A DNA stretch of 64,000 nucleotides, taken from an uncultured Clostridia bacterium. Its GTDB lineage: Bacteria > Bacillota > Clostridia > Christensenellales > CALVMC01. Position numbers and translations under genes: made by a program. Location of the stretch: contig CALVMC010000002.1 in assembly GCA_944342015.1 (NCBI GenBank), positions 124,001-188,000 of the forward strand, read 5' to 3'. Under the pieces are notes generated by a model. It made no database searches, was not told where the DNA came from, and worked only from the letters and a program-made list of their open reading frames with translations. Positions 3,001 through 60,143 of this stretch are shown here, piece by piece (positions within the stretch are counted from its first letter, which is position 1; each line of letters opens with the position of its first letter).

Positions 3001-3465
3001 GCCCGATAAATATAAGAAATGCCCGTGTTTTGGACTGATTGTTATATCATTAGTGAGATAAAAGTAGGAACTATTATAATCACCGTAAGTCGTATTATTA
3101 TCTGCATCATTATCGAATATTGTATTACTTAGTCTGCTTAAATCAGAAGCCGTAATTTCGGTTCCGCTTTGAAGCTCTCCGCTAACCGTTGCGCCGCCCG
3201 TTACGTTTCTTCCGTTGAAAGTCTCTTCGGAAAGGACGTTGCCGTAAGAAGTTTCGTAAGAGATATTGCCGTCATAACTTTGATCTGCCGCAAACTCATA
3301 GTCGAGTTTATTGCTGCCGTATGTGATATCGCTCTTTTCGGAAGATAAAGAAATAATACTTTGGGTATTAAGACCGCTGAAAATACAGGAAAAAACTATT
3401 GCCGCAATCAGCAACAATACGATAAATCTGACCGATTTTAAACTGACAAATTTTCTTTTAGTCAT
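1..3465 (-). CDS. GLUG-repeat secreted surface protein (3' part cut off by window edge)
   Basis: The frame is open from an ATG at 3465 to the left edge, 1,155 codons with no stop, so the C-terminus is missing. The ATG sits 4-5 nt after GGGGGAG, a strong ribosome site. Residues 1-31 are a signal peptide: basic MTKRKF start, then a hydrophobic stretch ending VFSC, which could be an imperfect lipobox at Cys27. The mature part is rich in Ser, Asn, Thr and Gly and carries about ten GLUG-type motifs such as YAGGFAGYVNG, YTGGFAGDIDE, GAGGFAGKSY and YIGGFSGRVNG. FDGRGHTITV and FNGNNHTITL blocks, typical of GLUG adhesins, precede two series. GLUG repeats are known from cell-surface and adhesin proteins. 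Adhesion or surface coating is inferred. It has its own promoter and lies downstream of the giant lipoprotein gene on the same strand. Confidence 0.8.
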   Translation of the reverse strand, partial: MTKRKFVSLKSVRFIVLLLIAAIVFSCIFSGLNTQSIISLSSEKSDITYGSNKLDYEFAADQSYDGNISYETSYGNVLSEETFNGRNVTGGATVSGELQSGTEITASDLSRLSNTIFDNDADNNTTYGDYNSSYFYLTNDITISPKHGHFLYLSGKDSSNQVTFDGRGHTITVNYTGSATEFGVSASAYGNAFGLIFAKISYATVKNLNIVINGNGSTIKYNQDDKSDVENYFGAVFGYANNVAFQNITATVKNLNLLSELDNADFTATHTTAMGGFIARITGSSQLNNVIFNAEELSITLTSTSEQPVNDDLMNIYLGTFIAQAQGALTDITVNATSSSLTNTFTTKSAGSFYMGTVGALSGNSSNIVFNLNGCGYMASPRTTNPGDTTNTYNSFGFARLDSAVDKVYVIATSSILNFAYQIYDEDSKENKFYAGGFAGYVNGNIANSVLSLNGSAVSTTSSSVYADQYTGGFAGDIDESNSNITFSNNAVIFSNAISSSVVQNYSTNKNNSTNGENIWVETYNKNYAGAIIGYVSMTEILDITEKLSNILVLAPVTGLLDTHDLNYCKKVFIAGGGFAEVIAGGSDLILSIKNPENLYRDDSGNYGVYTAEYVWLSLEETYNLNKQKSITTTANLYSQNSSLFSARFDGNNLSALDFTLGSSIPSNSFSGGRKMILIEFFKDEIYSAADFNRVAYDYSMGAGYIEGIEINLMADITFESRLLPLGSASVSFGSVFNGNNHTITLNQGSVIYEQYYAGVFGAITNKATVTNLKIVNNAYIVAQGADGVFKEVFAGAFAGAVGLEEHTTDSATIQNIKVISSSNSYIASSNPFVSSQHSVDKVGEASVIAYAANVRSGAGGFAGKSYRTNISDCSSENAGTIYGYSAYSMLMYLGGFIGKIEGGTYNRISVAVNKFVKKFDGAAYVESDIESPTLYGDGKFDMNTIELRNSDLGVYIGGFSGRVNGSKNDGTSFQDISVIFTSLNAFNSIDTVAEYLSGLDYSSENKRSKEWAYLNSVSEYISLFTLATAHRNALFPINVVTKNCAVIYEDFIAKDQVNNVPYTKSYFIGVDTTTGESGKYGVEYTKNLVGGIYDFNGIAGPAGENKTITNGTITTTVKSYVSYYNAVEILVGEEGSSYGQGAGFMDKFTATISA

Positions 3466-3485
3466 TCTCTCCCCCGAATAAAACC

Positions 3486-3514
3486 ATTATATCATATTTA
3501 TTATATATAGGCAA
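3486..3514 (-). promoter_or_regulatory. sigma-A-type promoter of the GLUG-protein gene
   Basis: On the minus strand TTGCCT is followed by exactly 17 nt and a perfect TATAAT, about 20 nt before the start codon. It indicates that the GLUG gene can be transcribed separately from the giant gene upstream. I see no clear intrinsic terminator between the two genes. Confidence 0.7.
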
Positions 3515-30600: not shown

Positions 30601-30810
30601 TGTATCTGATTGTTCGTAAGAAAGAGCTTCGACAAGTTTATTGAAGTTGGTTGTCCCGTCGAAGTAATCGGAATCGGAAGGAGGATTCAAAGAAGGGTCG
30701 TCTTCCGGGTTGATAGGATTAACCGGATTGCACGCAACGAAAAATACGCAGAGAAAAACAGCGATAAGCAAAACTATTAAAATTTTGTTAAGCGTTTTAA
30801 ATTTATGCAT
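3604..30810 (-). CDS. giant repeat-built surface lipoprotein, 9,068 aa
   Basis: One uninterrupted frame of 27.2 kb. I place the start at the ATG at 30810 because GGGGGAATT lies directly before it; the frame is open 8 codons further upstream but that extension has no ribosome site. Residues 1-27 are a lipoprotein signal (basic n-region, long hydrophobic core, FVAC with Cys27), so the protein should be lipid-anchored outside the cell membrane. About 22 diverged units of roughly 320 aa follow (residues ~30-7200). Each ends in a signature like YYxxxxxYLDLSxxGLGxxKI, followed by a helix and usually a Ser/Glu/Asp-rich linker. Next come a hydrophobic segment (~7270-7300), an EF-hand-like loop (~7620), and about 12 Ig-like repeats of ~95 aa (~7810-9068). 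There is no LPXTG motif or other C-terminal anchor. I do not recognise the large repeat. Adhesin, stalk or surface-layer roles are guesses. Neighbours: GLUG protein downstream, small lipoprotein upstream. Confidence 0.9.
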   Translation of the reverse strand: MHKFKTLNKILIVLLIAVFLCVFFVACNPVNPINPEDDPSLNPPSDSDYFDGTTNFNKLVEALSYEQSDTFSFEIFLVWDKYNKRTENGNEVILNRNHTLIRLAANIGVRNEENEVLVEFFSGDELSSYTIEDVVNNPDLVNNSVRSPELGFYYFNEDLYLDLGADNRKIKLEGLDINKLIELVSEALNLAEGLLQSMLGSDIPGLLAMLIGLASSSNVYYEQNGVVESFGFGINVKTVVNLVIGLIPTITSSLKLDTLFTTFDINAVIEDLFGYSTSDMAVTIPKIEVNFDVVLSSGMFQSAVCSVVASENSFTLEDKFDGETQHRDGLNISLDVFLNYLSISNIKFTGVEEGQTVNASKNDTRLNIVFPEFVNFTTYGLFNFQLEGELDVVNTYNVGGNTVRTVTLNSLLSPAILKLAGLSGMGDLEIKLDSDTYGLRFQLIADLDLKDNDGNFISLKIAEVTDYSYSNPIVSLYYLGESKDLVLDCSGLGFPKVKIEGFDLTGTLNNIYDFLLAMLKGDSSNVSIIEYEKAEKTSVYDFSYAENTSDTMVEGSGKINLASLIHNILDGKQLIDWWNEACITLDISASDMQDLIALFGNFVTLPSVIKGLSYGDLFKSVQLKLGINKLEEDESLQNSGFYLDLGVNLIENSENDKLSLNFNLDGKWGIAFAYGSDFMNSFNTDSAFTNWLNNNYSAQDIARFNNPALTGEADRLFRKDIVLSYLINYYSNISSLGNLGDVLSGKISAQSVHIGAELKMGIDNPTTKNLTQMLNNLLGGLLGDMALDFDINIAEADSNFIIIFDLLADINLDINNLDFSNLLSNVRGGIEIKYFVGESQTNVQTLAIYIKDNYVYLDASALGIGKLKVKANIDEILGNLLSSFSGSSEDQSSSSEPSENEEDKQEYVDFMKLVSALFSGGVIVWEKNSFSLTVASLSLNAALKALGLNIELPQLDDTTLSVTGWDYEDGLNDLAVNFQTGIVFEDDIKNPLSVFLSLYNIRVDFGESMGILSNLVDEEYNTLADINYDFNNNKITVDYSSLDEITLDTELLIGFEGKKGFTQLNELFESLSNYLLTVFDKNLSERQYLQMAQIFQKLADTNSASVGSEEDFSMMLTIALKLAVDLNDLTSLKFYLGINNVKSNSTTTKNIQFDLYIIDGVLYIESGYFGLGKIKIDISSYLEIADEMFKEGFFGGEHILDFTLGGGSGFDPDLVNTILIAANSALQSVDLSFDNQLNIKASLASSVLTNFMRYLGLNLSLPAIDASNTYLSVALGDGTLEAQLKLGILGYILTAQINKLNIGFDVSEINLSVPNIEDYTESMEEYLNLYTSIVLDIAAFKNGFNGALNGILPDLGSDFTFTNTEINSLIRIDIRASINVGNILSNLDTLIDEMAKYLAMDSNAEGYEEATKQFFKVLIAALHGIELSLDIYTMDSTITTYVAGVTLDYNVYQDAYDLYVTSDLIFGTESGSSSGIKYENFPLEEYILKFLGFDETEESADSQNVSNVNTNLNSENITTDGGSQSDTSGSSNTQTAITSFILFSVSLNEIKLQVSTNALISLIALFMPEVQDFDFIADLVGQIDVSVYDIVVDGDTEFGDLHRVDATSESKGFVVGLVLYDLAISLGDGIQTPSEDNFIVVGENRTSMISVGVSLDFEIDNSNNTFSLNLAGLSQSIASLITDEQANILIESLLESTSIDFINTALSFTLNVTLITDISSIIVNGELTYLDLIISLDGYDNKLTGSVPKTVLSALYSYTDDSMYIYMNLEPVIVGAGNTPSKLKLQGIGLKDLIDGMMVSIFSSDDSSEQNTQTASYDKVKLNSQSDGTNGGEQNNGSSSVKDLDLLSIIGQMLKSVNLTENLSVIDISLKYGLFSLAAALLGTTLTSNATEGEPDLSVDLNLNLKNLFKADTQAISIDITLSDAASSVVISLGGNLKAFNGVNNLPNLSNYRVLGYPEVFDDKTQFKTYNEAAFTVEATAEIAFDYASDNGIAFSEVLKAMLGVSVFPELNLNLDTRLIANLKANISLNDIINSENKYLLLELYLDLYILNESAGNKTLKLITALYYDSISDNIYIDLTSIGLGNILKIEDSGLASILTDIVKDLLSDLLNPDGQQTENGTASNVNSIKNISSVVNLNGESETGSESDSGSDLSGIVQLSAETKQIIAISIASGVLNNLFNMLNMQYLGNVVNGAEISWGYYEITEDGNTKEDFRINLDIFYSDNGVRKGGISAEFNSISFSIYNEFSQKFGSDSMASNLVSNAVELGDVQDIRVKADLSVGIISTDGYDAAFDLSVLANNSTLASVANLISAIAVKIGGTVEDGKTSYKLQAQADLIAKFDLTYFDLGDLVRKILNGENLDFGAFIQESLLGIEAYIDFKLINDSGDSTIITNIASVYYNGNDIYLYIDMVGVKLKISDAFNINDIISDMFADSGDSDTVEGENGSAESDASNDDTSSSSSFDLRAFDAIFGALTSIDIESARLGISFGNNLLEYLFNFVLGYSNSMFTMNGMESDGNVSINFSNTGTDGNILESISAEIDFVKNNDDNTTESINYDIVLSNLTLPINTADDFDVLVSNKMGNLSDYSVFYDLNLGLSMFGSLDVHLTSDVNLTLILEQLLSSLGYDMPNITVGNAFTSSVELSIIANISFRDMTNEFGQNIRQAGIELLIPIFINLSGGTKKQFAIIYYTSLDDELWLDLSSFGLGNVIIPGLGLDEIVNDIIQPSGGSSSGGTSSSSGLGSISAELDVILNSQGLILSVSAGVITNMLKTLGVELTVPDFKNVQITIGTDTTQSDSITSIDEIVNVSNLGIGLKINFTDTTYIDLNIGNLAVNNKAYDIKGMKELTTATDSNGAETVKKWVSIADVKNISASLSLDMNFNTPQALKEYSFGPLIQKILDINIANDKDLFDLFFNSDLQSDTKFALGLDLDLSVGVNLSVEDFTRFFNLLSNSSRNDQENQEYEALAKKIFTSLSLVLKVYMAVGEGEKVDRNTDLLAAIYLTGTTVYVYAPDFDVKLKYTDDSLDLYKILLSALGIKEEEVASEVQNINKNIDLLNQQTSETEEDNMLQSILDTIYNINLKATGIDVNFVSTLLAELLDAFDIGTEPYDGVNKTNASVNIVNENGELFTLFDELGAEVEFLNSDNTSTGLKLGLYITGLGLSANKVLDTSVFGVLSDYKGALDANIYIATSGEIDFGINSNIINFSGILKNLLDTQDNINTTLTGRLSGVYILDLEVNLNLANLDNLELFLSLSKKGTDTNSLVLSIYYNGINGLTALDLSGLVDIPPIMIEGLTIGKFLSSSLNDLIFGNSEEENQEGQENDSSSENQGSSFNFDEFIDQLSGRLDLSVLNSMKVGSSSISYDYIAIGLNSVLLNSLIKFFLDDNLNDFVNLDSETNGLFSSLGFANIGFNFNGEKFDKFILEINLGEKMSEENSTVTGEKDSTYLYLNFTDGLTLKASNYETKFNASEYINLADVKALYLGASVDFSFDIPEDVLVGLKDVLGELIWGMGIDVSFAQSVDWDIKINLYGEILTQELVQKLIDSYKISDTGITKEILVDTILNSIFRLEVINENAQPGENKIILDLYYEGNSNRVYINLPVLNLKSYYDATDIKQSLKNLVLDMFNKENPTVTETEEANNNELNIADLINLIANINISSESLVVTTVTTLIDSAFSLFGLDLKYSLPDALCEASINFEPGGTRFSSIALDLTLTPKDGTIVTGGNGKDISMSLAFGGLAFDTVNIGASRIVFDKQGFTRLSSVYAGFSGGLKISTDEQSQNNDIVISGINIKDVLEKVFENNQSIGLDFAQNYQGDFNIDFQMKLNVSTIPGFLLNTPKGDSDEERREYNKALIQNLLEGGELYLALSYTYSEGGASSVEDIVKLYYFGNTFYLDLNEKFGLPKVKIKLSASELVNMLFFADNTSDEENTDGTAEGDNQASQTETQADSQNNGQSGSQDSTENPSDSDKNNTQNNSLNLSALSLLLAISGMEFTATLSQAFISKLLQAIGINIDIISGSSNSGTDSSGSETGNSDSESGASTGGQQNSSGTDNDYLFNFILIPTGVDENGNKVVFENTYLELYFDDIVLNTLNSVVKPQTDNFELVDINGIITINAQATVELNLLIDKNVDDSQNGKFTLGDILNKKPTTSADDEISYIPDVIIDALSNIFINVLNNVNETITLNIKANFSYNMITKAISDIEVYLELISKLNTGSSEVLLVLFYSYIDGEIYINAPVLSNIKFKIDNVGDLLNLFSNNSSDESSDTETGGESGSASESGENNEEENFIEKNIENIVAMLSSLNIKSTELSIYVASNLVSLLLDMLGIGFIKGDSIVTTGTGNNSAIDINTEASMSVNLFDKDISMDLGLSVQENNASVFGIGLNLSFNNYSIGAGKLNIKETFDYNNYNALSDIKNIEFNLEAKINPNSAPPEIKNILGEFSLLIDESFEGELVIRITALIPTPDLMSMFEGGKGIADIFNFNNLQLKLDILVNYDGMEESFLQAFFDASGAGTVYVDIPWFKLPNSNDYLKFYYTGLDLNSMLSSSGSSNDNENTEENKTEDEKTEEETEAEKNQLIADIISLIAGAYIDVGSDNKFSMSVKLASSFVSELSKVMKEHFDFDLNLGQIAGVDSSEVKLSLKDKCITYHMVNGGAVSENYFMYIGIGETKVNAAYLRNDGWYYPINYFDDISLSASVNLDLNYIGGEYGLGALLNGILGVSGNDAISDTVKLILGIKGTGYQNFSDALRLDLTANLNLRNLLKQGISIDDIEALVELYRISEDAGINTETLLLRVYIKDAVLYADVPMLNIVNVKIENLINVSLESSAEESDSNSDSASETESTEEKEDGIIKDDKGNLIVADKKFDLTAVLALLSQIYLKGNGNDSDLNNLIGVAFKGDILLQGLDLFGTMLYENLGIKLYEMSLINGTGKEVYLTDGSLDTSKEYLDGIYIKTGSGADEKIVGYAYTYEYKDSSGKEVKLIYKKVFNTSIPTVNGDIILSLDRKADGYRDLSASLNLGIASGETEIIEIGASVNNLAVQFSRSEIKLSKFNSNGHIIEGQFYSLSDYKPFNTDNYLYFDTQIVITGNESTGATLALQELFRILLDEEDYTTTSSLIFNVFESDQVYTINLSAAIKGLNIEQILKNAELKVEVFKNGTGSSNLVLFVYINLELGEIYIELPNNTVNAIRSDKIKIQNINLTGLSSMFESEEGTSGAGENNESESFFNEEGELKIDNKLIANLINGLNNITIIQNSVGLSISGDIIKYALLSASGLNMNVGTVEKDAQGNIDTSKLNKFGRLLHYVYTLIYGMELNLAYDKTVGSSFYNNLTASLSLSVRKTNNISNANFDKEGGKLSLDLNNIEVSTSEVSIYDSFDKSGFEIFDGKVGIALETTFKMNSEQGTIDLSDMIDGVLSKILNGYGAIPNGEEINLTLGTITGISSDYEEFVLNIYGDIDVLAYIESGLYAMLKNSELLVEIYCKLPEGYNLYIARVYIEQGIAYVYTDLIQGNNPLYGTDSPKLKINLLSAFYGNDYVEYTADGNVEFKQENEFIKIVKLIKNIEISENSLSISTVDKLLSIIDESIFDLHELFNESYLTEDKLDKIDRYLGSFNLNVDFTSGADEWISIGGIIGNSKPSGMTEYPKLDFGFAINTVDITINNGFFGSTGSITGQENFMTDEEKELYGDILSLDGISVYNKSEVTIDVKDIVFDLKNILADIDGNDHVLLQAIKNLSAALINIGGDDLSGTYTMEVLARVKTLFASEFSLSDIQLNLSLLKEKSGSTVKYLEVYLNDGVIYISLGDEAIPVLSGLFGGLQNIKLDLYSILSSLGINLYRANRYNMASSVTENVSTVTSTTSFIIENLGLLLSIIEEFKIDQGGFNLKLDSQFLSKIFDVLEDGLELNGLSKIIIDEVDLNLGINLYNYENVKNDYLTWSGFSQEQKDVYNSFRNYTISNSGTGSSVILSYENLTQKGSAVIDGENVEQSQYYLFNGSSLGFRFSPTSENNDAQFIPQNEENYKELNDENIVFDFDMSFDLGIQGNTVQDLPVDIFNILRGLFPEISGSANLDNLIELVVAQNFNQNLILSLSGRIYPFALNQSELLLVLNLWDLNPMRLYFTEGNIFVDLTAFGIEKFYIPFDVESNISTYMKSLLNMLNTESANFKQSSGHMVQIQPDDKDTFEKLADIIKGLLLRVEITTGENTVLNVSLRDNYTDEDGNEANFLMNLMKLLGFDDIGYIRVSYPKIDILLEGNNLNSTQEPLLSLSTYIEGIVISADFNLKQIEFSEADRNQWDNKVYYPINHLLYQNSTTYQTKEGQYYGIKDYWTENGYTDTYGKHTFTDHWISYEDLHIVFKGTISSNLNASQGDNNEKIWIQDLLKLVLYNVSNSYIDFTSSNFSKEFAVNAEIDFYIADYLFGGRDREDRRTEILLSVVKKDTSQTILLFGFQASTATTVLEINTFNIGKYKITDYDIFENIVEYVNSLNIDLSGLLASAGNIEEITDDSESVDLNDRVIVSSRLTGEKGLTIKIGGTNYMGIKNGMNVSVGGKFLQFVFEAMGLYDTLNNAYQQALPALSKLAGQLNGSNTTHFKDSLDITLLYSLFDTLSLDLYYGIDAVISSDSTSTCDIRKVSIDGYNYYMPSCGCTSRTCLELGRCSNSSSDCIHGSFDKPAFNMGLVIDYGYFKYTNKGTAEKPQIVKEFSTNKKLTYNLDIESLELAKDYYSAGGSTIFISNGININDYSLLSDLTRIKFSTEINLGGDLYEQSLLEGPLGAVVEMLLGAFKSYLTDTFNINFVGNDKLDLSLYIDIDLDFADLSNSSMVIELIDNDEIISKNIATPTSDVVLGLYYSGGKSYDSSTQSLKENGLDPNTLYVRLGILFTQFLSAGKHGHADFEFKVISLPIVSILETIKGYLNEATSLISDMITGKLVMDIVDMLVGEEGIAPDTDSDSADEEEITEVTNTPSVRQLLSGESGAAFIIEFSDEVYNRINEEHYSIKINSTLIAELMYLLGLEIDLRGFESSEAIKEGDEVVGQKITKSEIDDFILIEIAANGSDVTETFTANLKENGVQDDNLGIYLALNLSANTGTEAQISRFSLNIEHLAVATNGSTVQNIFNFPKGETKTGTYVNIVTEGLNKFGGIVAGYQMGDEYYLDVYSLIQGFIDGIYGSSNKDIEYDGNKYTGFLATIYFGSRVANRSYGPNKKRDNPLIFIYDMNKVGGADSKHLLHIHVANNLSAATYLTIEDVHVLIGKSLSQIYMDSIRIGFVLGLRIGFITINILGPVGIILGVLGWMFSDTFLHSIINKFLVLPALSLNNLLSGLSEIQTGLTATVNKFTQAIKSGIIDGLGLSGVYDGFEGETVSGEFNLPESTDYVDGITYYSDSKIVAKVNGKDLTISTESDAYLDNTLTTKIIDGNSLESVVQLKLNCALVCELIGSIHNMLSTNDPYSHDFANDVIRFILDMGGMGSMTGHMTFITGNTARLLVNSFLPLPYYYTSNSAFYVQLYLYAGGLKGINIVFDHNASSDGHLNYSTDPNYAGFTMEANDFNLYINVDPIDFMPSTTFINKTGNDAVEAGKYYGSLPEDSSKAIQKLTEANIIKTKEIIANSYLDLDTDNSGKYDCLEDLTANYGFHRINTNAGYKFAAGGKGAFASEVTVSWVLHGEIDTTKADAVYLLLGYVRGAVYKYATLRVTNAIQVANQENNDVPYLTAEGLTLPLTYTVGDKLPTEVTVKINLINNGQIVGSKLVKYGEYSTHTSKWDMGPDGKGYEYGDDENSSYDRYAIYTFSDGMFRSISVKVPIRAVNERQILRIADGQLVFDVFENIVFPDTVQGYFTDSGLTTFKVQRWYNTANVKRTLSGGTYYVSARMGNGDMGYYLVENIPVTILPAEISEIKYLNPESGLYDIEDSTLTFNPFMTGYSAVDINNYPMYAAVKFKGSDKQYKMAVQFNLSNVNDSFTGGEYVISVRLGDDSLGYVKDSFTVIVENALITHDKVDGVGDIVFDVFDENYMGFEESDIWQLNGRDITVNSGDYTIEIANEDIVWDVTSLSDAAQGGIYFAKLIITGKNGVKQEIDYPVTFKNRIATSVSMLGASELFKDGFDPYDDTNNPRNQELYTDTVILGFADNTTKEWTVESWNLNTISYGYAGGITYAVAEIKDRAGNIQSVNLPILIKSKIIEEVITLTDSFNVFDSARSAFSASSYPEKVSVIFKDGSSRVLTVSSWNTSALKNSLAGKELYLGGTFEIGLSAGNETGGYQSAVARIIIDPAVITDFGNVNNIVIDPYESDPRNIDNYPSSLEITVNGTEKMTVTPVWDISDITSNYINGYEGGEFTATLKVGNIVYGYQTKSIKVTVYDRVAANCEYEELVFDPFENIVFPNEITVYFTDGTQRTFNASWYALEGNNLVPIELNVSVATKTYSNIYAVFGNEKGGYQRLNVPVRTVDRTVSALFTENDRNTNLFENTVVYESYSDFVSGMPNVYVASFNDGTTHSFIPAAVAYGTVNEGQFTEKAITEEGGTFTVRLEFKVGSLTQYVYYKISVGASLLGKIYTLSGEEITSFTSFDELPQEVIAEFSGRQERVRPVWGEISEGKIKGNFNGFEKEFTYTEIDTTKLFENGANALSYTLDMYNLKSFPSFIDIVAGGKTYTFEAFFAKDAENVIKDNINTLKTASSDLTVAVEVNLSYSANGKTYTAITNANVTLLNKVVESLIASEINISPYEGATFTSYAVKFRNGTVGTIPYMAIRNFKKNGVETALYEGGEFTATLVLGNAILSQEFEITVIADTKIIASTSPVVYEQKTNELADTLSVMFTDGTGKNLNIKWEYSSVNYRTLGETVIGDRGYEVAYFNVLCGDDFGGYQQVTVTVYIIDSLTDSDFMYENSPLNSLAVNPYNIELPTFFILQIDGKNYSFNAVFESKESGKTVEETVKNAYKNGQNSTELTLTLDRGGKKVVLTVTISILNFSSVVGSNGEKVTEITVKNYSDFSVFCEFSIGDGADKITQNIYLNVLGFINEAGQSVSVPVSGQKYKLKLGIKLENAQTYDIYETSELLTVNIEA
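3700..7390 (-). repeat. array of ~12 Ig-like repeats at the giant protein's C-terminus
   Basis: Protein-level repeat of about 95 residues. The pattern is roughly FDPFENIxFPxxVxVxFxDG, then a Trp-containing strand (xxWDTSxI), GGxYTAxxxxG, GYQ, and a closing xVPVxVxDRxI. Examples lie at about 7320 (FENIVFPDTVQGYFTDSG), 5690 (FDPFENIVFPNEITVYFTDG) and 4600 (INISPYEGATFTSYAVKF). The all-beta pattern suggests bacterial Ig-like domains forming a rod. The copies are diverged at DNA level, so this is an old duplication. Confidence 0.7.
9100..30730 (-). repeat. array of ~22 unrecognised ~320-aa repeats in the giant protein
   Basis: Successive unit ends carry the same signature: YYFNEDLYLDLG near 30340, YYLGESKDLVLDCSGLG near 29370, YIKDNYVYLDASALGIG near 28250, YIIDGVLYIESGYFGLG near 27320, YYTSLDDELWLDLSSFGLG near 22720, YYNGINGLTALDLSG near 20970, YYFGNTFYLDLNEKFGLP near 19110 and so on down to about 9200. 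After each come a short amphipathic helix, an acidic Ser-rich linker, and a new unit opening with a SLSxxLLxxLLxxLGxxL helix and beta strands. Spacing is 900-1,100 bp. Copies are diverged in DNA, so these are ancient tandem duplications. I know no family name for the unit. Confidence 0.7.
10795..10915 (-). other. six-cysteine insert within one giant-protein repeat
   Basis: Residues ~6630-6672 contain six Cys in about 40 residues, including SCGCTSRTCLELGRCSNSS, in a protein with otherwise very few Cys. The spacing suggests a disulfide-bonded knot or a metal site. No other repeat copy carries it. Confidence 0.6.
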
Positions 30811-30852
30811 AATTCCCCCGTATTTAAAGCGCAATGCTTAAAATACATATAT

Positions 30853-47594: not shown

Positions 47595-49682
47595 CTAACT
47601 GTTTTTTTTCTCGGACTTTTTCTTGGAATTTCCAGGGATAAAAGGTCCGGAAGTCTTTAAGACAGAAGATGCAGATGTTTTTTCGTTTTTGTTATTAGTA
47701 TCTGCATTTTTTTTGTTTTCCTTATTATTTCTTTCTTCTTTTACTATTTTATCGATACGAGAAGAAAAGTTTGCGCTACTATCCGATTTTGAAACTATAT
47801 TTGTATGTTTAATATCGTAGTTAGAATTTACGGCATTTGCTCTGTCGATATAGCTTTTAGTATAAAGCATATTGGAAGCCTTACTGGTTGTATTTGCATT
47901 AACAGTGGGCTTATAAGTGCCGTTTTCGATAGCTGCTGCTTTTTTCTTTGCTTCTCTTTTCTGCGCCCTTTTGTAGGCTATTTCGGTTTTAGAAGGGCTG
48001 TTTTTAATTTTATCCGAAACGGTAGGATTAAAGACGAGATTTGATTTTGCGCCGACAATACCGGAAGAACCGGAAGTCGGAATTCTTTTCTCGATATGAG
48101 TATTGTCGAAACTTACGGCGCTTTTGACAATAGGACCTGCATTGGTTAAATTGGATCTGTTTACCGTAGGTCTTTCTTGTTTTCCTGTTTGTTCTTTTAA
48201 TTTTTTCTCTTTGTCTATGAGAGCGGATACAAACTTTTTATATTTTTCGTCCTTTTTGTTTTTACCTTTTTTGTTATTAAGATATTTAGCGCCGTAAACG
48301 CTTAAATTTCTGTATTCCTTTTCGGAAAGAGCGTTTTGTTCATTCAGTTTTGCTTTTTCCAAATAAGCCGATAATTCGTCTTGCTGATTTTTTGCAACAG
48401 TTTCTCTGACTTCACGGATAATTCTTTCTTCTTCTTCAAAATCCTTACCGTAAAGGATTTCCTTTGCGCTTTCCTGATTTCTGCGAACGGTATCGTTGTA
48501 TCCGCTTCTGCCTAAATCTTCTCTTACCTCGTTTATGATTTTTTCTTCTTGCTCTAAATCTTTACCGTAAAGAATTTCCTTTGCATTTTCTCTGTTTCTT
48601 TTAACTTTTTCGTAAAGTTCTCTGTTGATTTTTTCGTTGCTTAATCTTGCGTTCATGGGAGCAACGGTTTTCTGTTTGTTTTCAATGTTACCCGATTCGA
48701 GAAGTTTTACCGAATTCTTTTTCTTTGAAGAATTATCGGGTTTAGTTAAAGTTACCTGTTTGTTGCCGTAACCGTAAGGAACGAGATTTTTCTGATTATC
48801 GGTATCTCTTACATGTCTTTTATTTGCATTTACATACTCATTATTATGATTTCTATCGTAAACTTCCCCGGCGGTATCCAATTCTATCTCTTCGTAAAGT
48901 TCCTCATTATTCTTTTTAGGTTTATATTTATTTTCATGTTTTACCTTTTCGGGTTGAGCGCTGTTAGCCGCTGCATTTCTCACGGGATAAGAAGCGCTTG
49001 CATAATCGTTTCTTCTTGCCGAATAGAAAGAAGCAGGATAGCCTTTCATTCTTGCTGCATATTTTACCTTTTTTGAGTTCTTTTCTTTTGTTAAAAGGAA
49101 TATTAAAATGTTAGCGATAATCAGAATAAGAAAAGGAATGGAAATAGAAAGACCGATGTAAGCGGGAGAATTGATATTGAGAATATTCTGAGCAGTAACG
49201 GACGAAGCGGAGATGCAAGCGCCTAAAACGCTTTTATCTTCAACGAAAACGGTAACGCCGCTGTCGTCGTCGGTCTGTAAGTAATAATTTATAGTTCTGT
49301 CTATACTGTTTCTTTCGATAGCGATAACCTTTCCTATAAAAACTCTGTTTTCGTTAGAAACATCGAAATAACTATTGTTTGCGTAAAAAACAGTGTAAGC
49401 AATCACATCGCCTACAATAATCGATTTATCGACATCGACGGCTATTTTTTCGTCGTTACGGAAACCTGAAGCATTGAAAGTAAAATTCGTACTTCCGGCA
49501 CTTGTAGCGGTAATAGCCGAAGTATTACCGAAAGAAGGCACATTGGAATTAAGGCTTGTACTGATAAGAACCACAAGAGCGATGGCGAAAAAAACCAAGG
49601 TTATCGGTACGATAATCGCATTGGTAATAAGATAATATAAAGTGCGTTTACTTCCACGCTGTTTTTCCGAAGCCAAATCCAT
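47595..49682 (-). CDS. membrane protein with S26-like external domain and long basic cytoplasmic tail, 695 aa
   Basis: Starts at ATG 49682 after AAAGGGAAG. TM1 spans ~18-41 and TM2 ~174-197. Between them lies an external domain with VGDVIAY (90-96), FIGKVIAI (115-122), YYLQTDDDSGV (133-143) and VLG (152-154), in the same order as in the 2,772-aa partner and in SipW-type signal peptidases, but with no catalytic SGSM serine or HR histidine. The ~500-residue cytoplasmic tail is Lys/Asn/Glu-rich and mostly disordered. It holds a duplicated motif, ENAKEILYGKDLEQEEKII and ESAKEILYGKDFEEEERII. The partner gene begins 30 bp downstream, so they form an operon. The shared external domains suggest the two proteins pair across their outer faces. 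Function unknown. Confidence 0.8.
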   Translation of the reverse strand: MDLASEKQRGSKRTLYYLITNAIIVPITLVFFAIALVVLISTSLNSNVPSFGNTSAITATSAGSTNFTFNASGFRNDEKIAVDVDKSIIVGDVIAYTVFYANNSYFDVSNENRVFIGKVIAIERNSIDRTINYYLQTDDDSGVTVFVEDKSVLGACISASSVTAQNILNINSPAYIGLSISIPFLILIIANILIFLLTKEKNSKKVKYAARMKGYPASFYSARRNDYASASYPVRNAAANSAQPEKVKHENKYKPKKNNEELYEEIELDTAGEVYDRNHNNEYVNANKRHVRDTDNQKNLVPYGYGNKQVTLTKPDNSSKKKNSVKLLESGNIENKQKTVAPMNARLSNEKINRELYEKVKRNRENAKEILYGKDLEQEEKIINEVREDLGRSGYNDTVRRNQESAKEILYGKDFEEEERIIREVRETVAKNQQDELSAYLEKAKLNEQNALSEKEYRNLSVYGAKYLNNKKGKNKKDEKYKKFVSALIDKEKKLKEQTGKQERPTVNRSNLTNAGPIVKSAVSFDNTHIEKRIPTSGSSGIVGAKSNLVFNPTVSDKIKNSPSKTEIAYKRAQKREAKKKAAAIENGTYKPTVNANTTSKASNMLYTKSYIDRANAVNSNYDIKHTNIVSKSDSSANFSSRIDKIVKEERNNKENKKNADTNNKNEKTSASSVLKTSGPFIPGNSKKKSEKKNS

Positions 49683-49731
49683 AACTTCCCTTTAAAAACA
49701 CTATTCCTATTTTATATAAATATATATTATT

Positions 49732-56004: not shown

Positions 56005-57465
56005 TTATGCTGAAAGTTTTTGATAATATTTTTTAAAGTTTTTCAACTGCTCGATATAGGAAATAAATTCATTTTGCGATAAAGATTTATATTTGAAATC
56101 TTCGCATAAATTATTTAAGTTTCCGATAAAGTTTTCTTTGTTGTCGGAGTATAAATTATAAAAGAAAAAGAAGGACGCAGAATACACCGATACCGAATAT
56201 GCAAGTTCCGCATTCTCTCCCGTAAAATAATAAATGTCTTCCAAAGGTTTTAAATCGCTTTCTTTTTCGGAATAATTTTCAAAGTATGCGATGTTGCTTT
56301 TAATTTCGTCTATAAAAATTTCCGATTTGTTTTTATCGTTATTTAAAAAATAATAGTAAACGGAAAACTCCGAAAGCCCTTCGTCAATCCACGGCGAAAA
56401 CTTTTGATTGCTCCCGATCAGATAATACCACCATTGATGAGCCGTTTCGTGAAGAGCAATTCTTTCTGCAACATATTCGTCGGTAAAAATTTCGGTTGAA
56501 AGCATTATCATTTCCGAGTATTCCATTCCGCCGGAAAACAAATAGGTTTGAGCGATATCGAACTTCTTCTTCTCTGTATTACAGAAAGCTTCGTCGAAAA
56601 ATTCGTATCCTTTTAACGCCGTCCGCAATACTGTTTCGCTGAACTTTTCATTTAAATAATAATAGTTAATAACCGTTCCCGAACTTGTTTCCCCGCTTAT
56701 TTTTTTATAATTCTGCGATGCCGAAAAAGCAAAATCCTTGATATCTTGACCTTTTATAAAAATGGTTTTTCTTTTACCGTTTATTGTTTCCCATTCCGCC
56801 GTTGCGCTGTGCGCAACGAGATAGTTTTGAGGCACATTAAGATAAACTTCATAATCGGCGTAATCGGTATCGAAAGGGTCGCCTGTTATATGATAATTTC
56901 CGTGGACAAAACCGTCGTCGTTTTCCTGACATACCGAAGGATAAAAATTACCGGCGTTAAAACAGTTATCGTAAAATCCCAATCTGTGAAAGGCGCAAGG
57001 AAATTGAACGGTAAAATCGATTTCCGCACTGAAAACTTCCCCGCTTTTAATTTTTTCTTGCGGATAAATTCTTAATACGCTGTCGAAATCCACAATCTCG
57101 TAAAATAAATTATTTCCTTTATTTTTTACCGAATTGATTTTTACAGAACCGTAACTTATTCCTTCGGGATAAATCAAATTTATATTCTGAAAACTTACAG
57201 GCTTATAAATGGAGTTTTGACTGAAAGCATTAGGATACAAGTCGAACTCTATATAGTTTTTCGACTTTTCGAATTTATTGACATAATCTACCCTCATTTC
57301 ACATTCGAGTAATTTATAATCGGTATTTAAATAGGCATTAATTTCATAAAAATGTTTTTGAGTATTTTCGCCGCTTGAATTTTCAATGTATTTGCAATTG
57401 CAAGCTGAAAGGGTTAAAGTAAAAAACAAAACGACAATAACAATCAAACTATATCTTTTTTTCAT
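56005..57465 (-). CDS. M1-family (gluzincin) metallopeptidase lipoprotein, 486 aa
   Basis: Starts at ATG 57465 after AAAGGTCGG. Lipobox LSAC with Cys22 anchors it outside the membrane. An N-terminal beta domain (~38-250) precedes the zinc domain. HETAHQWW (339-346) with Glu362 in WIDEGLSEF gives the M1 ligand pattern HExxH-x18-E. The substrate-binding GAMEN of aminopeptidases is replaced by GGMEY (312-316), and the usual C-terminal helical domain is reduced to about 110 residues, so it is shorter than classic aminopeptidase N. It probably trims peptides at the cell surface. Its neighbours (hisC, the sRNA, glmM) give no functional clue. Confidence 0.85.
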   Translation of the reverse strand: MKKRYSLIVIVVLFFTLTLSACNCKYIENSSGENTQKHFYEINAYLNTDYKLLECEMRVDYVNKFEKSKNYIEFDLYPNAFSQNSIYKPVSFQNINLIYPEGISYGSVKINSVKNKGNNLFYEIVDFDSVLRIYPQEKIKSGEVFSAEIDFTVQFPCAFHRLGFYDNCFNAGNFYPSVCQENDDGFVHGNYHITGDPFDTDYADYEVYLNVPQNYLVAHSATAEWETINGKRKTIFIKGQDIKDFAFSASQNYKKISGETSSGTVINYYYLNEKFSETVLRTALKGYEFFDEAFCNTEKKKFDIAQTYLFSGGMEYSEMIMLSTEIFTDEYVAERIALHETAHQWWYYLIGSNQKFSPWIDEGLSEFSVYYYFLNNDKNKSEIFIDEIKSNIAYFENYSEKESDLKPLEDIYYFTGENAELAYSVSVYSASFFFFYNLYSDNKENFIGNLNNLCEDFKYKSLSQNEFISYIEQLKNFKKYYQKLSA

Positions 57466-57699
57466 AACCGACCTTTATAAATTCTTTACAGATAAATTAT
57501 ATTAAAGGACGGCAAACTATATTTCCGATTAACTGTTTTTTTGAAAAATAAATTAAAATGACTTATGATAAAAATATTCAATTAAAGAGTTGATTTTCGA
57601 TAAATCGATAACTATGTTTTATTTAAATTGTTTTAAATCAATAATAATATTTTGATTAATTATTGTTTTAGTTTTAATTACATTAATAAAAATAGAAAT
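57466..57699. other. AT-rich spacer between the M1 gene and the small-RNA locus
   Basis: I see no gene. No promoter for the M1 gene matches consensus well; TATAAT occurs close to its start but lacks a -35 box at the right distance. Confidence 0.5.
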
Positions 57700-57825
57700 C
57701 GGTATAAAGCAAGACGGCTAAGACTTTCGCCTTAGCCGCCTTACTTCATTATATGATAAGGGGGAAATTATGAGCTTTTTAACGAGTCAAGGTGCGAACA
57801 TTTAATTCATTGTAACCTCAACTTC
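57700..57825 (-). ncRNA. predicted C-rich small regulatory RNA (~120 nt)
   Basis: It has a near-perfect promoter of its own and a strong 3' hairpin. Predicted layout 5' to 3': a stem GTTGAGGT with ACCTTGAC (8 pairs, two wobbles); an A/U-rich unpaired stretch holding AATTTCCCCCTTATC; then a 16-bp hairpin closed by a GAAA tetraloop and TTTATA. C-rich unpaired UUCCC motifs that block ribosome sites are known from Bacillota sRNAs such as RsaE/RoxS; this one is not a recognisable copy of those. Its C-rich stretch is complementary to GGGGGA-type ribosome sites in this window. It lies 50 nt after glmM on the same strand. Alternative: the opposite strand reads AAGGGGGAAATTATG and an 11-codon ORF (MSFLTSQGANI), a possible small peptide gene, but that strand has no comparable promoter or terminator. 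Confidence 0.55.
57709..57744 (-). terminator. 3' hairpin of the predicted small RNA
   Basis: Minus strand GTAAGGCGGCTAAGGC, GAAA, GTCTTAGCCGTCTTGC: 16 pairs with three wobbles and a GNRA tetraloop. The following tract TTTATA is U-poor for a terminator, the main weakness of the call. Confidence 0.65.
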
Positions 57826-57831
57826 GCTAAT

Positions 57832-57860
57832 ATCATAATACATTATATTTTTTTTGTCAA
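57832..57860 (-). promoter_or_regulatory. near-perfect promoter of the predicted small RNA
   Basis: Minus-strand TTGACA, exactly 17 nt, TATGAT, starting 50 nt past the glmM stop and reading away from it, where no protein gene follows. Confidence 0.75.
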
Positions 57861-57909: not shown

Positions 57910-59226
57910 TTATGCTTTTATCGATTCATAAAGGTTTTTTATTAATTCTTCCCCTTCTTTTAGTATCTGAACCAATTTATCGTAATCCTGACCTTCCGCC
58001 ATAAGTCTTACGATGGGCTCGGTACCGCTGGGACGAAGAATAATTCTGAAACCCTGATTTTTGCATTCATCGACAAAGTTCAAAAGTTCTTCTTTTTGAC
58101 AAAGTTCCTCGCCTTTATCCTCGCAAGGAACGCTTATGCTGGCTTGCGGATACGGATAATAATCCAATCTGTCAGGATCGATTTTAAGTTCCAAAAGCGC
58201 CTGTACGAGCAAGGCTCCCGCAAGTATGCCGTCGCCGGTTTTTACCGTTCCGTCAAGAATGATATGCCCCGACTGTTCTGCGCCTAACGATAAACCGTTG
58301 TCTATCATTTCTTTTTGTATGTATTTATCGCCTACATTTGTCCTTACAAGGCTTATTCCGAATTCTGAAAGTTTGTCTTCGAGGGCGCTGTTGGTAAGAA
58401 CGGTTCCCACAACGGTGTCTTTATTGAGTTTGCCTTTAACTTTAAGATATAGTGCAAGAACATACATAATTGCGTCGCCGTCGATAATTCTTCCCTTGGG
58501 AGTTTTTGCAAGTACTCTGTCCCCGTCCCCGTCAAAAGCAAGAGCTATAAAATATTTTTTATCTACATCAAGGCTTTCGATATTGGTTGAACCGCAACCG
58601 ACATTGATTTTCGCTCCGTCGAACTTACCGTTTACTACATCTACGGCCTTTGCGCCTAATCCCCTAAATACTGCGGGAGCTGCAATACAAGTAGCTCCGC
58701 AAGCGGTATCGAGTAGAATTTTAATGCCTTTATATTTTTTTTCGATTTTGTTTTCTATTTTATCGAATATGTATGTTACATAAGAACTTGTTCCGTCAAT
58801 ACTTTTTACCGAACTCGACATCGGGGTAAATTTTTTAAATCCGTTTTCAAGATAGTATTCTATTTCCTCTTCTTCTTTTGCGCTTATTTTGATTCCCTTT
58901 TTAGAAAATATTTTAATTCCGTTGTATTCGGGCGGATTATGCGATGCGCTTATCATAATGCCGAAATCGGCTCGCTCGTAAACCGTATAATAAGCCACGG
59001 CAGGCGTGGGAATTATCCCTAAATCCAAAACTTCCACTCCGAAATCTTTAAGACCTTTTTCAAGCATTGCGGTGATTTTATCGCCGCCCGTTCTGCTGTC
59101 ACGTGCAATTATTACCCTTTTCACGCTGAAAGCGCTGCAAAGAGCTTTTGCAAGTCTTTCACTGAAAGAATCTTCCAAAAATTTTTCGGTCAACATTCTT
59201 ATTCCGTCTGTTCCAAAATATTTCAT
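57910..59226 (-). CDS. glmM: phosphoglucosamine mutase GlmM, 438 aa
   Basis: Converts glucosamine-6-phosphate to glucosamine-1-phosphate on the way to UDP-GlcNAc for peptidoglycan. It has the GTDGIR start (5-10), the phosphoserine loop ISASHNPPEYNGIK with Ser95, the magnesium site FDGDGDR, GAEQSGHII near residue 310 and the sugar-phosphate loop RPSGTEP near the C-terminus. Length is slightly short of the usual 445. The GAEQSGH and SASHNP forms favour GlmM over other phosphohexomutases. Its ATG overlaps the stop of the thioredoxin reductase gene by 4 bp, so the two are translationally coupled. The usual partner CdaA is absent. No terminator follows directly. Confidence 0.93.
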   Translation of the reverse strand: MKYFGTDGIRMLTEKFLEDSFSERLAKALCSAFSVKRVIIARDSRTGGDKITAMLEKGLKDFGVEVLDLGIIPTPAVAYYTVYERADFGIMISASHNPPEYNGIKIFSKKGIKISAKEEEEIEYYLENGFKKFTPMSSSVKSIDGTSSYVTYIFDKIENKIEKKYKGIKILLDTACGATCIAAPAVFRGLGAKAVDVVNGKFDGAKINVGCGSTNIESLDVDKKYFIALAFDGDGDRVLAKTPKGRIIDGDAIMYVLALYLKVKGKLNKDTVVGTVLTNSALEDKLSEFGISLVRTNVGDKYIQKEMIDNGLSLGAEQSGHIILDGTVKTGDGILAGALLVQALLELKIDPDRLDYYPYPQASISVPCEDKGEELCQKEELLNFVDECKNQGFRIILRPSGTEPIVRLMAEGQDYDKLVQILKEGEELIKNLYESIKA

Positions 59227-60143
59227 TTATTTATCTCCATTACAAATTTACCTGCATTTTCTCCTGCAAGGGCTCCGCCTGCCGCCGCCGTAACTATTTG
59301 TTTAAGAGTTCCGTCTGTAACATCGCCGGCTGCATAAACTCCTTTAACATTTGTCAATGCGTTTTTATCTACAATAATATAACCCGAATCATCGGTAATT
59401 ATTTCATTTTTAAAGACTTCCGAATTGGGAATATATCCTATCGCAACAAATATCCCGTCGCACGGCATCTCTTTTGAAACGCCGTTTACATCAAGTATTG
59501 CGGAGCGTAATTTCTCATCGCCTTTAAGTTCGACGATTTTCGTGCGATACATAATTTCAATACGGGAATTTTCCTGCGCTTTTTGTATCAGCACGGGAGT
59601 TGCTCTCAGTTTATCGCCCCTATAAACAATATACACCTTTTGCGAAAGAGAAGCAAGCACCAAAGCGTCGGTAAGAGCAGTGTTTCCACCCCCTGCAACG
59701 ATAACGGTTTTTTCTTTAAAGAAATTAGCGTCGCAAGTAGCGCAGTATGAAACTCCCCTTCCCGTAAACTCAGCCTCACCTTTAACATCGAGTTTTCTTG
59801 AAATAGCTCCCGTACATATTATAAAAGCCTTGCATTTTAAAAGAGAACCGTCTTTCAGAAATACGGCTTTTACATCGTCTTTTAAAGAAACTTTTTCAAT
59901 GCTGCCGTATACAAAAACAGTACCGAAACTTTCTGCCTGCTTTTGCATATCGTAAGTTATTTCAAAACCCGACGCATTTTCACGGGCGGGATAATTTTCG
60001 ACTTTCGGAGTAAGTGCCGCTTGACCGCCCACAGCCATACCTTCTATTACTGCGACTTTTGCTCCCATTCTCGAAGCGTATATCGCAGCGGAAAGTCCGG
60101 CAGGACCGCCGCCTGCAATTATTATATCGTAAAAGTTTTCCAT
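59223..60143 (-). CDS. trxB: thioredoxin reductase, 306 aa
   Basis: A flavoprotein that reduces thioredoxin with NADPH. FAD loop GGGPAGLSAAIYASR (11-25), redox pair CATC (C134, C137), NAD(P) loop GGGNTALTDALVLASL, and the closing FAD motif GVYAAGDVTDG. In the second dinucleotide site the segment after the loop reads VYIVYRGDKLRA, with one Arg where classic TrxB has HRRxxxRA, so a different reductant preference (as in ferredoxin- or NADH-linked relatives) is possible. The ATG lies 6 nt after a TATAAT box and no Shine-Dalgarno site is present, suggesting a leaderless mRNA. Overlaps glmM by 4 bp. Confidence 0.88.
   Translation of the reverse strand: MENFYDIIIAGGGPAGLSAAIYASRMGAKVAVIEGMAVGGQAALTPKVENYPARENASGFEITYDMQKQAESFGTVFVYGSIEKVSLKDDVKAVFLKDGSLLKCKAFIICTGAISRKLDVKGEAEFTGRGVSYCATCDANFFKEKTVIVAGGGNTALTDALVLASLSQKVYIVYRGDKLRATPVLIQKAQENSRIEIMYRTKIVELKGDEKLRSAILDVNGVSKEMPCDGIFVAIGYIPNSEVFKNEIITDDSGYIIVDKNALTNVKGVYAAGDVTDGTLKQIVTAAAGGALAGENAGKFVMEINK

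Follow-up and report, generated by a model that had tools for sequence, protein, structure and literature searches.

A predicted C-rich small RNA of Clostridia with a conserved box complementary to translation start regions

We analyzed a 64,000-nt stretch of contig CALVMC010000002.1 from an uncultured Clostridia bacterium (the window), in which a predicted small RNA (sRNA) gene lies on the minus strand in the gene order dnaK-dnaJ-trxB-glmM-sRNA-M1-like lipoprotein. The sRNA gene is intergenic, with a promoter and an intrinsic terminator of its own and without a conserved open reading frame (ORF). Its features and its neighbors are listed below; f numbers designate families of the order and G numbers designate genomes, of which G001 is a close relative from the same genus.

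59223 to 60143, minus strand: trxB-like reductase gene, adjoining or near the sRNA also in f3, f16, f24, and MT835718
57910 to 59226, minus strand: glmM, the upstream neighbor, which also adjoins the sRNA in f3 and f14
57855 to 57860, minus strand: -35 hexamer, TTGACA
57832 to 57837, minus strand: -10 hexamer, TATGAT, after a spacer of 17
57704 to 57825, minus strand: predicted sRNA transcript of ~122 nt, with both ends inferred
57783 to 57826, minus strand: 5' stem-loop, common to the window and G001 and not a feature of the family
57751 to 57776, minus strand: conserved box, AGCUCAUAAUUUCCCCCUUAUCAUAU, one U shorter in this genus (f1) than in other families
57760 to 57764, minus strand: CCCCC core of the box, its anti-Shine-Dalgarno part, each C being kept in 62 to 63 of 63 relatives
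57707 to 57746, minus strand: intrinsic terminator hairpin with a GAAA loop, its tail weak in the window and a better U tail in G001
56005 to 57465, minus strand: M1-peptidase-like lipoprotein gene, the downstream neighbor, homologs of which flank the sRNA in f24

The near-consensus minus-strand promoter TTGACA-N17-TATGAT (57860 to 57832) scores 11/12, the top score in the 4 kb scanned, and confirms the observation of a first-pass annotation that a promoter reads here into about 120 nt. The 5' end of the transcript was placed 7 nt past the -10 hexamer, and the 3' end was placed past the terminator hairpin. The 137-nt stretch from 57690 to 57826 folds at -44.9 kcal/mol (z, -6.2; equaled by none of 200 shuffles), and the predicted fold has a stem at the 5' end and leaves AAUUUCCCCCUUAUC open; its GAAA-capped hairpin (16 to 21 bp) is followed by UUUAUA, a weak terminator tail in comparison with the better U tails of most relatives. 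All three of the elements described in that annotation, namely, the 5' stem, the open C-rich loop, and the GAAA-capped hairpin, are therefore present, but the 5' stem does not extend to the family, in which the leader varies.

A blastn search of 61 related genomes with a 171-nt query recovered an element with 93% identity over 161 nt in G001; for many genomes from other families of the order, its matches were confined to the surroundings of the C-rich loop. When 396 genomes of the order were scanned for the 24-nt box CUCAUMAUUUUCCCCCUUAUCAUA, with up to 3 mismatches allowed, 145 of them, from 51 of 142 genera, gave a match, as against 2 of 396 for a reversed-pattern control. Nearly all of these matches fall in families f3, f6, f9, f14, f16, f18, f24, f29, and f32, and among 391 genomes drawn from the class, matches of the sRNA type were confined to the order. 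Since Christensenellaceae bacterium Pcl387_bin85 and several metagenome-assembled genomes of gut Clostridia are among the named carriers, this order is probably Christensenellales; the carriers with a visible origin are uncultured gut Clostridia. Most carrier genomes have one sRNA copy. Extra copies, tandem or multiple, occur in G029, G281 (G281:C90), and G136 (G136:C15), and each of the G029 copies that we read has its own promoter and terminator. In G018 (G018:C144), a second box copy has diverged; it has a terminator and no clear promoter and is perhaps a decaying or differently controlled paralog. Elsewhere, a 3' untranslated region (UTR) in G000:C6 (~13239) carries AAAGCTCATAATCCCCCCCAAAT right after the stop codon, followed by a strong terminator hairpin, and a similar site occurs at G001:C5:83106; the G000:C6 site is possibly a second, 3'-UTR-derived sRNA of the same genus that shares the first half of the box.

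The relatives that we fetched have a common layout of promoter, variable leader, box (AGCTCATMATTTTCCCCCTTATCATA), and terminator hairpin with a U-rich tail, which we quantified in 65 nonredundant copies (63 relatives, the window, and G001). A promoter scoring at least 9/12 is found upstream of the box in 64 of the 65 copies but on the opposite side in only 5, and these promoters look housekeeping-type. Every copy has a terminator downstream of the box, whereas the antisense side gave 11 terminators and shuffling gave 13. Most box positions carry ~2 bits, a value somewhat inflated by selection at ≤3 mismatches although most copies have 0 or 1, and the flanks mostly carry <0.5 bits. The leader is 8 to 76 nt long and not conserved in sequence, and the 5' stem is therefore no defining part of the family. 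The box is mostly unpaired in the predicted folds (median, 0.77), with the CCCCC being more paired than not in 16 of 65, where the folded stretch may overrun the true end. Where the hairpin follows the box without a gap (20 copies), 99% of the positions in the terminator arms pair and 10 of 12 show compensatory change, with a mild bias from ends picked by folding; swapped arms gave 68% pairing, with a maximum of 79% in 500 trials. A covariation search in relatives, which had been suggested as a check, thus yields a covarying terminator next to an almost invariant box.

Beyond the neighbors listed above, those read from sequence include mnmG (f3) and spmB (f14), and the f24 homologs of the 56005-57465 gene are recovered with E values down to 5e-44 (profile E value, 8e-57). 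Because trxB, glmM, and the M1-like lipoprotein gene recur as neighbors across families, the gene contexts point to one ancestral, vertically inherited locus. We found the box in none of the viral contigs searched, and plasmid records gave weak partial matches only. The sole full match in a phage record is a complete sRNA copy in MT835718.1 ("Bacteriophage sp.," unverified, from human feces); this record, which includes trxB, YpeB, and Spo0A, resembles a chromosomal contig, and we rejected a phage origin. The RNA is hence not placed among those borne by phages or plasmids.

The complement of the box, TATGATAAGGGGGAAAATKATGAGCT, reads as a ribosome-binding site and a start codon at normal spacing. 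We sampled 464 kb of the bacterium's own genome (~400 kb of stretches plus the window), called 364 genes, and paired the box with their -30 to +15 regions. The mean was -10.3 kcal/mol, and 40 genes reached -16 kcal/mol or lower, as against means of -6.1 to -7.3 kcal/mol and 1 to 7 such genes for other gene regions and a single such gene when the start regions were read in antisense. Thirty boxes with shuffled flanks and an intact CCCCC gave a mean of -7.9 kcal/mol and 7.9 genes (maximum, 21); the weakening of start-region pairing upon this shuffling indicates that the flanks matter too. Replacing CCCCC with CCUCC would increase the number of paired starts to 58 genes. Hence, maximal anti-ribosome-site pairing is not the conserved property, and the conserved CCCCC, judged by these pairings, probably discriminates for GGGGG-type sites. 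The box accordingly has the traits of a seed: it is conserved, largely unpaired, and complementary to the start regions of mRNAs. The earlier proposal of a small RNA on the minus strand whose loop complements ribosome sites is supported, along with its caution that such a loop matches many starts. Near matches of the box outside the order included no sRNAs; about 10 sit exactly on real gene starts, in antisense orientation, including those of CodY, ClpP, LepB, IlvH, and RnfG (names read from the sequences). Whether or not G-U pairs were allowed, a search for full complements of the box recovered essentially only the sRNA itself, and a search of 30 genomes with AAGGGGGAAAATKATG mostly did the same. 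Escherichia coli rRNA, also considered as a partner, was rejected, its pairing being no better than that of shuffled boxes.

The start regions pointed out in the first-pass annotation are present as GGGGGAATTATG (giant lipoprotein), GGGGGAGAGAATG (GLUG protein), GGGGGAGTATAGTAATG (2,772-aa protein), and GGGAAGTTATG (47595-49682 operon), and three of these genes have a candidate site, as follows.

30796 to 30840, minus strand: candidate site at the giant lipoprotein start, TACGGGGGAATTATG (-17.6 kcal/mol), kept in G001
3448 to 3495, minus strand: candidate site at the GLUG protein start, TTCGGGGGAGAGAATG, kept in G001
49668 to 49712, minus strand: candidate site at the start of the 47595-49682 operon gene, AAAGGGAAGTTATG (-18.4 kcal/mol)

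The suggestion that one RNA represses the most expensive genes of the window fared unevenly: boxes with shuffled flanks did as well at the operon start in 0.6% of cases and at the GLUG start in 1.6%, but they did so in 6% at the giant lipoprotein start, which ranks about 24th among the 364 genes, and in 66% at the 2,772-aa gene start, where the box is no better than shuffled ones. The starts of the giant genes pair moderately, and target prediction in the 464-kb sample places spoIIIAG (-23.9 kcal/mol), ackA (-23.4 kcal/mol), and the phosphofructokinase gene (PFK; -23.0 kcal/mol) ahead of the giant genes of the window. These are followed by a SepF-like gene (-21.8 kcal/mol), an alpha-glucosidase gene (-21.1 kcal/mol), and two lipoprotein genes (-20 to -21 kcal/mol), all named from their sequences. 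The giant lipoprotein is itself the product of a single minus-strand gene (3604 to 30834) of ~9,070 codons (27 kb), whose GGGGGAATTATG start is conserved in G001. GGGGG-type starts are likewise kept in this close relative for the GLUG, 2,772-aa, and PFK genes; Cas9-like, ParC-like, and GlgD-like genes; and several lipoprotein genes. The Cas9-like gene has a GGGGGAAATATG start at both G000:C3:10873 and G001:C1:11511 and could pair with the sRNA. Signal peptides were predicted for 5 of 10 genes with GGGGG-type starts versus 60 of 354 others (P = 0.019), a hint of enrichment given the crude predictor and the small numbers.

We found no order-wide conserved target among hsp20, ackA, pta, and PFK in ~30 genomes. 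In other genomes, ackA averages -13.0 kcal/mol versus -9.5 kcal/mol for other genes and is strong in 3 of 20, G001 included; neither it nor pta nor PFK is conserved as a target across the order, PFK being essentially limited to the genus itself. The hsp20 starts of two sister species, G123 and G149, bear CIRCE-like repeats complementary to the box at 22 of 24 positions; hsp20 was rejected as a target, as this fit is absent from the other hsp20 starts examined. At contig ends of G195, a repeat that contains TCGGATAAGGGGGAACATTATGAG occurs roughly a dozen times, away from any ORF start, and an insertion sequence transposase was rejected as a target because these repeats are not at gene starts.

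The order-wide constancy of the box can be read in several ways. It might be a protein-binding site, through which the RNA titrates or is stabilized by an RNA-binding protein, with mRNA pairing being secondary. Such a site would suit the conservation of nearly all 24 positions, including A/U positions of little pairing energy, over a stretch longer than the usual sRNA seed, as well as the lack of a conserved mRNA target among those searched; we nevertheless regard it as quite unlikely, as it needs no match to start regions, yet the box matches them far better than do shuffled or reversed boxes. The same lack of a specific conserved target, together with a shift in pairing that affects start regions as a whole beyond a few genes, would be expected of a general translation brake that pairs weakly with most starts and broadly lowers initiation, for example, in dormancy or sporulation, without a regulon. 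We consider this reading unlikely, since the retention of CCCCC, although CCUCC matches more ribosome sites, speaks for discrimination. A related possibility, which we hold to be doubtful, is that the box is a dedicated anti-start-site sequence that spans the Shine-Dalgarno sequence, the spacer, and the start codon together and is invariant across the order for acting on initiation as such. The RNA would then brake initiation broadly, with CCCCC setting its preference for GGGGG-type sites, and would not be a regulator of a few mRNAs.

Two further readings dispense with a free minus-strand RNA. In the window, the M1-like lipoprotein gene lies downstream on the same strand, ~240 bp past the hairpin, as might be expected if the element were a cis-acting leader or attenuator; different families, however, have different downstream genes, which often lie on the opposite strand, and the terminators are complete, making this very improbable. 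A plus-strand small-peptide gene, the alternative that the first-pass annotation itself had put forward against the sRNA, could account for the ribosome site (GGGGGAAATTATG) and the 11-codon ORF (MSFLTSQGANI) of the window and G001. It is scarcely credible and fails in the relatives: across the 65 copies, the antisense ORF ranges from 2 to 48 codons with unrelated sequences, conservation ends right after the start codon, and the promoters and terminators are on the sRNA strand, in the opposite direction. A peptide on the sense strand was also rejected, as a start that reads through the box occurs in no more than 34 of 65 copies and as the box of the window is one base short, which alters the frame.

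The explanation that we favor, and consider likely, is a trans-acting base-pairing sRNA of an undescribed family, vertically inherited in one order of Clostridia, that blocks translation initiation. With its transcription delimited by a housekeeping-type promoter and an intrinsic terminator of its own, the sRNA would present its nearly invariant, mostly unpaired 24-nt box to the whole translation start region, with CCCCC lying opposite the Shine-Dalgarno sequence, UUU(U) opposite the A-rich spacer, CAU opposite the start codon, and UUAUCAUA opposite the bases upstream. It would thus pair with the starts of a set of mRNAs, favoring GGGGG-type over the usual GGAGG-type sites, and keep ribosomes off. 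The architecture, conservation, covarying terminator, synteny, and start-region specificity of the box can be read directly from the sequences, and we infer from them transcription, pairing in the cell, a repressive effect, and the choice of target genes. Since the box reads as a start-region complement, its function can be directly tested with reporter assays. Its near invariance across at least nine families probably signifies an important job, and its favoring of GGGGG sites relative to GGAGG sites suggests that the members of a regulon can be marked by the Shine-Dalgarno sequence that they use.

As to known systems, the family has counterparts among C-rich RNAs of other bacteria. The 6C RNA of Actinobacteria likewise has unpaired runs of C but presents them in hairpin loops, whereas the box of the present sRNA is a linear stretch before the terminator. 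No Rfam family, including the RsaE/RoxS covariance model and the LhrC model, matched in the window or 20 relatives, and a literature search found no small RNAs in Christensenellales; thus, the sRNA appears to represent an undescribed RNA family. RsaE/RoxS of Staphylococcus and Bacillus is likewise a Firmicute sRNA whose C-rich regions pair with Shine-Dalgarno sequences and block initiation, as where RoxS keeps ribosomes off by pairing with the ppnKB start region (PMC4409812). Its targets in central metabolism recall some of those predicted for the window sRNA. RoxS differs in having four C-rich regions with other flanks, in contrast to one CCCCC in a 24-nt box, so that the window sRNA lacks several C-rich regions in a conserved fold, and the family of the window is restricted to one order. 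LhrC of Listeria has a single-stranded C-rich stretch between two stem-loops that pairs with the Shine-Dalgarno sequence of a surface-protein mRNA, exerts the same kind of block on lapB, and is multicopy in one genome (PMC4132741), as is the present sRNA in G029 and G281; however, its UCCC sites number three, spread over two loops and a linker, and it depends on LisRK, unlike the present family, with one site and mostly a single copy. FsrA and CsfG of Bacillus are C-rich sRNAs with a predicted layout similar to that of RoxS (PMC8216469); they have no Rfam-level similarity to the window sRNA, and CsfG depends on sigma-F/G, whereas the promoters of the window family look housekeeping-type. Among the known C-rich sRNAs of Firmicutes, a conserved pairing region that covers both the ribosome site and the start codon seems unusually long. 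By analogy, the mode of action is most likely like that of RsaE/RoxS, FsrA, CsfG, and LhrC, to which the sRNA is unrelated in sequence; the kind of RNA is familiar, but the family appears to be new and to stand out by the length of its invariant pairing box.
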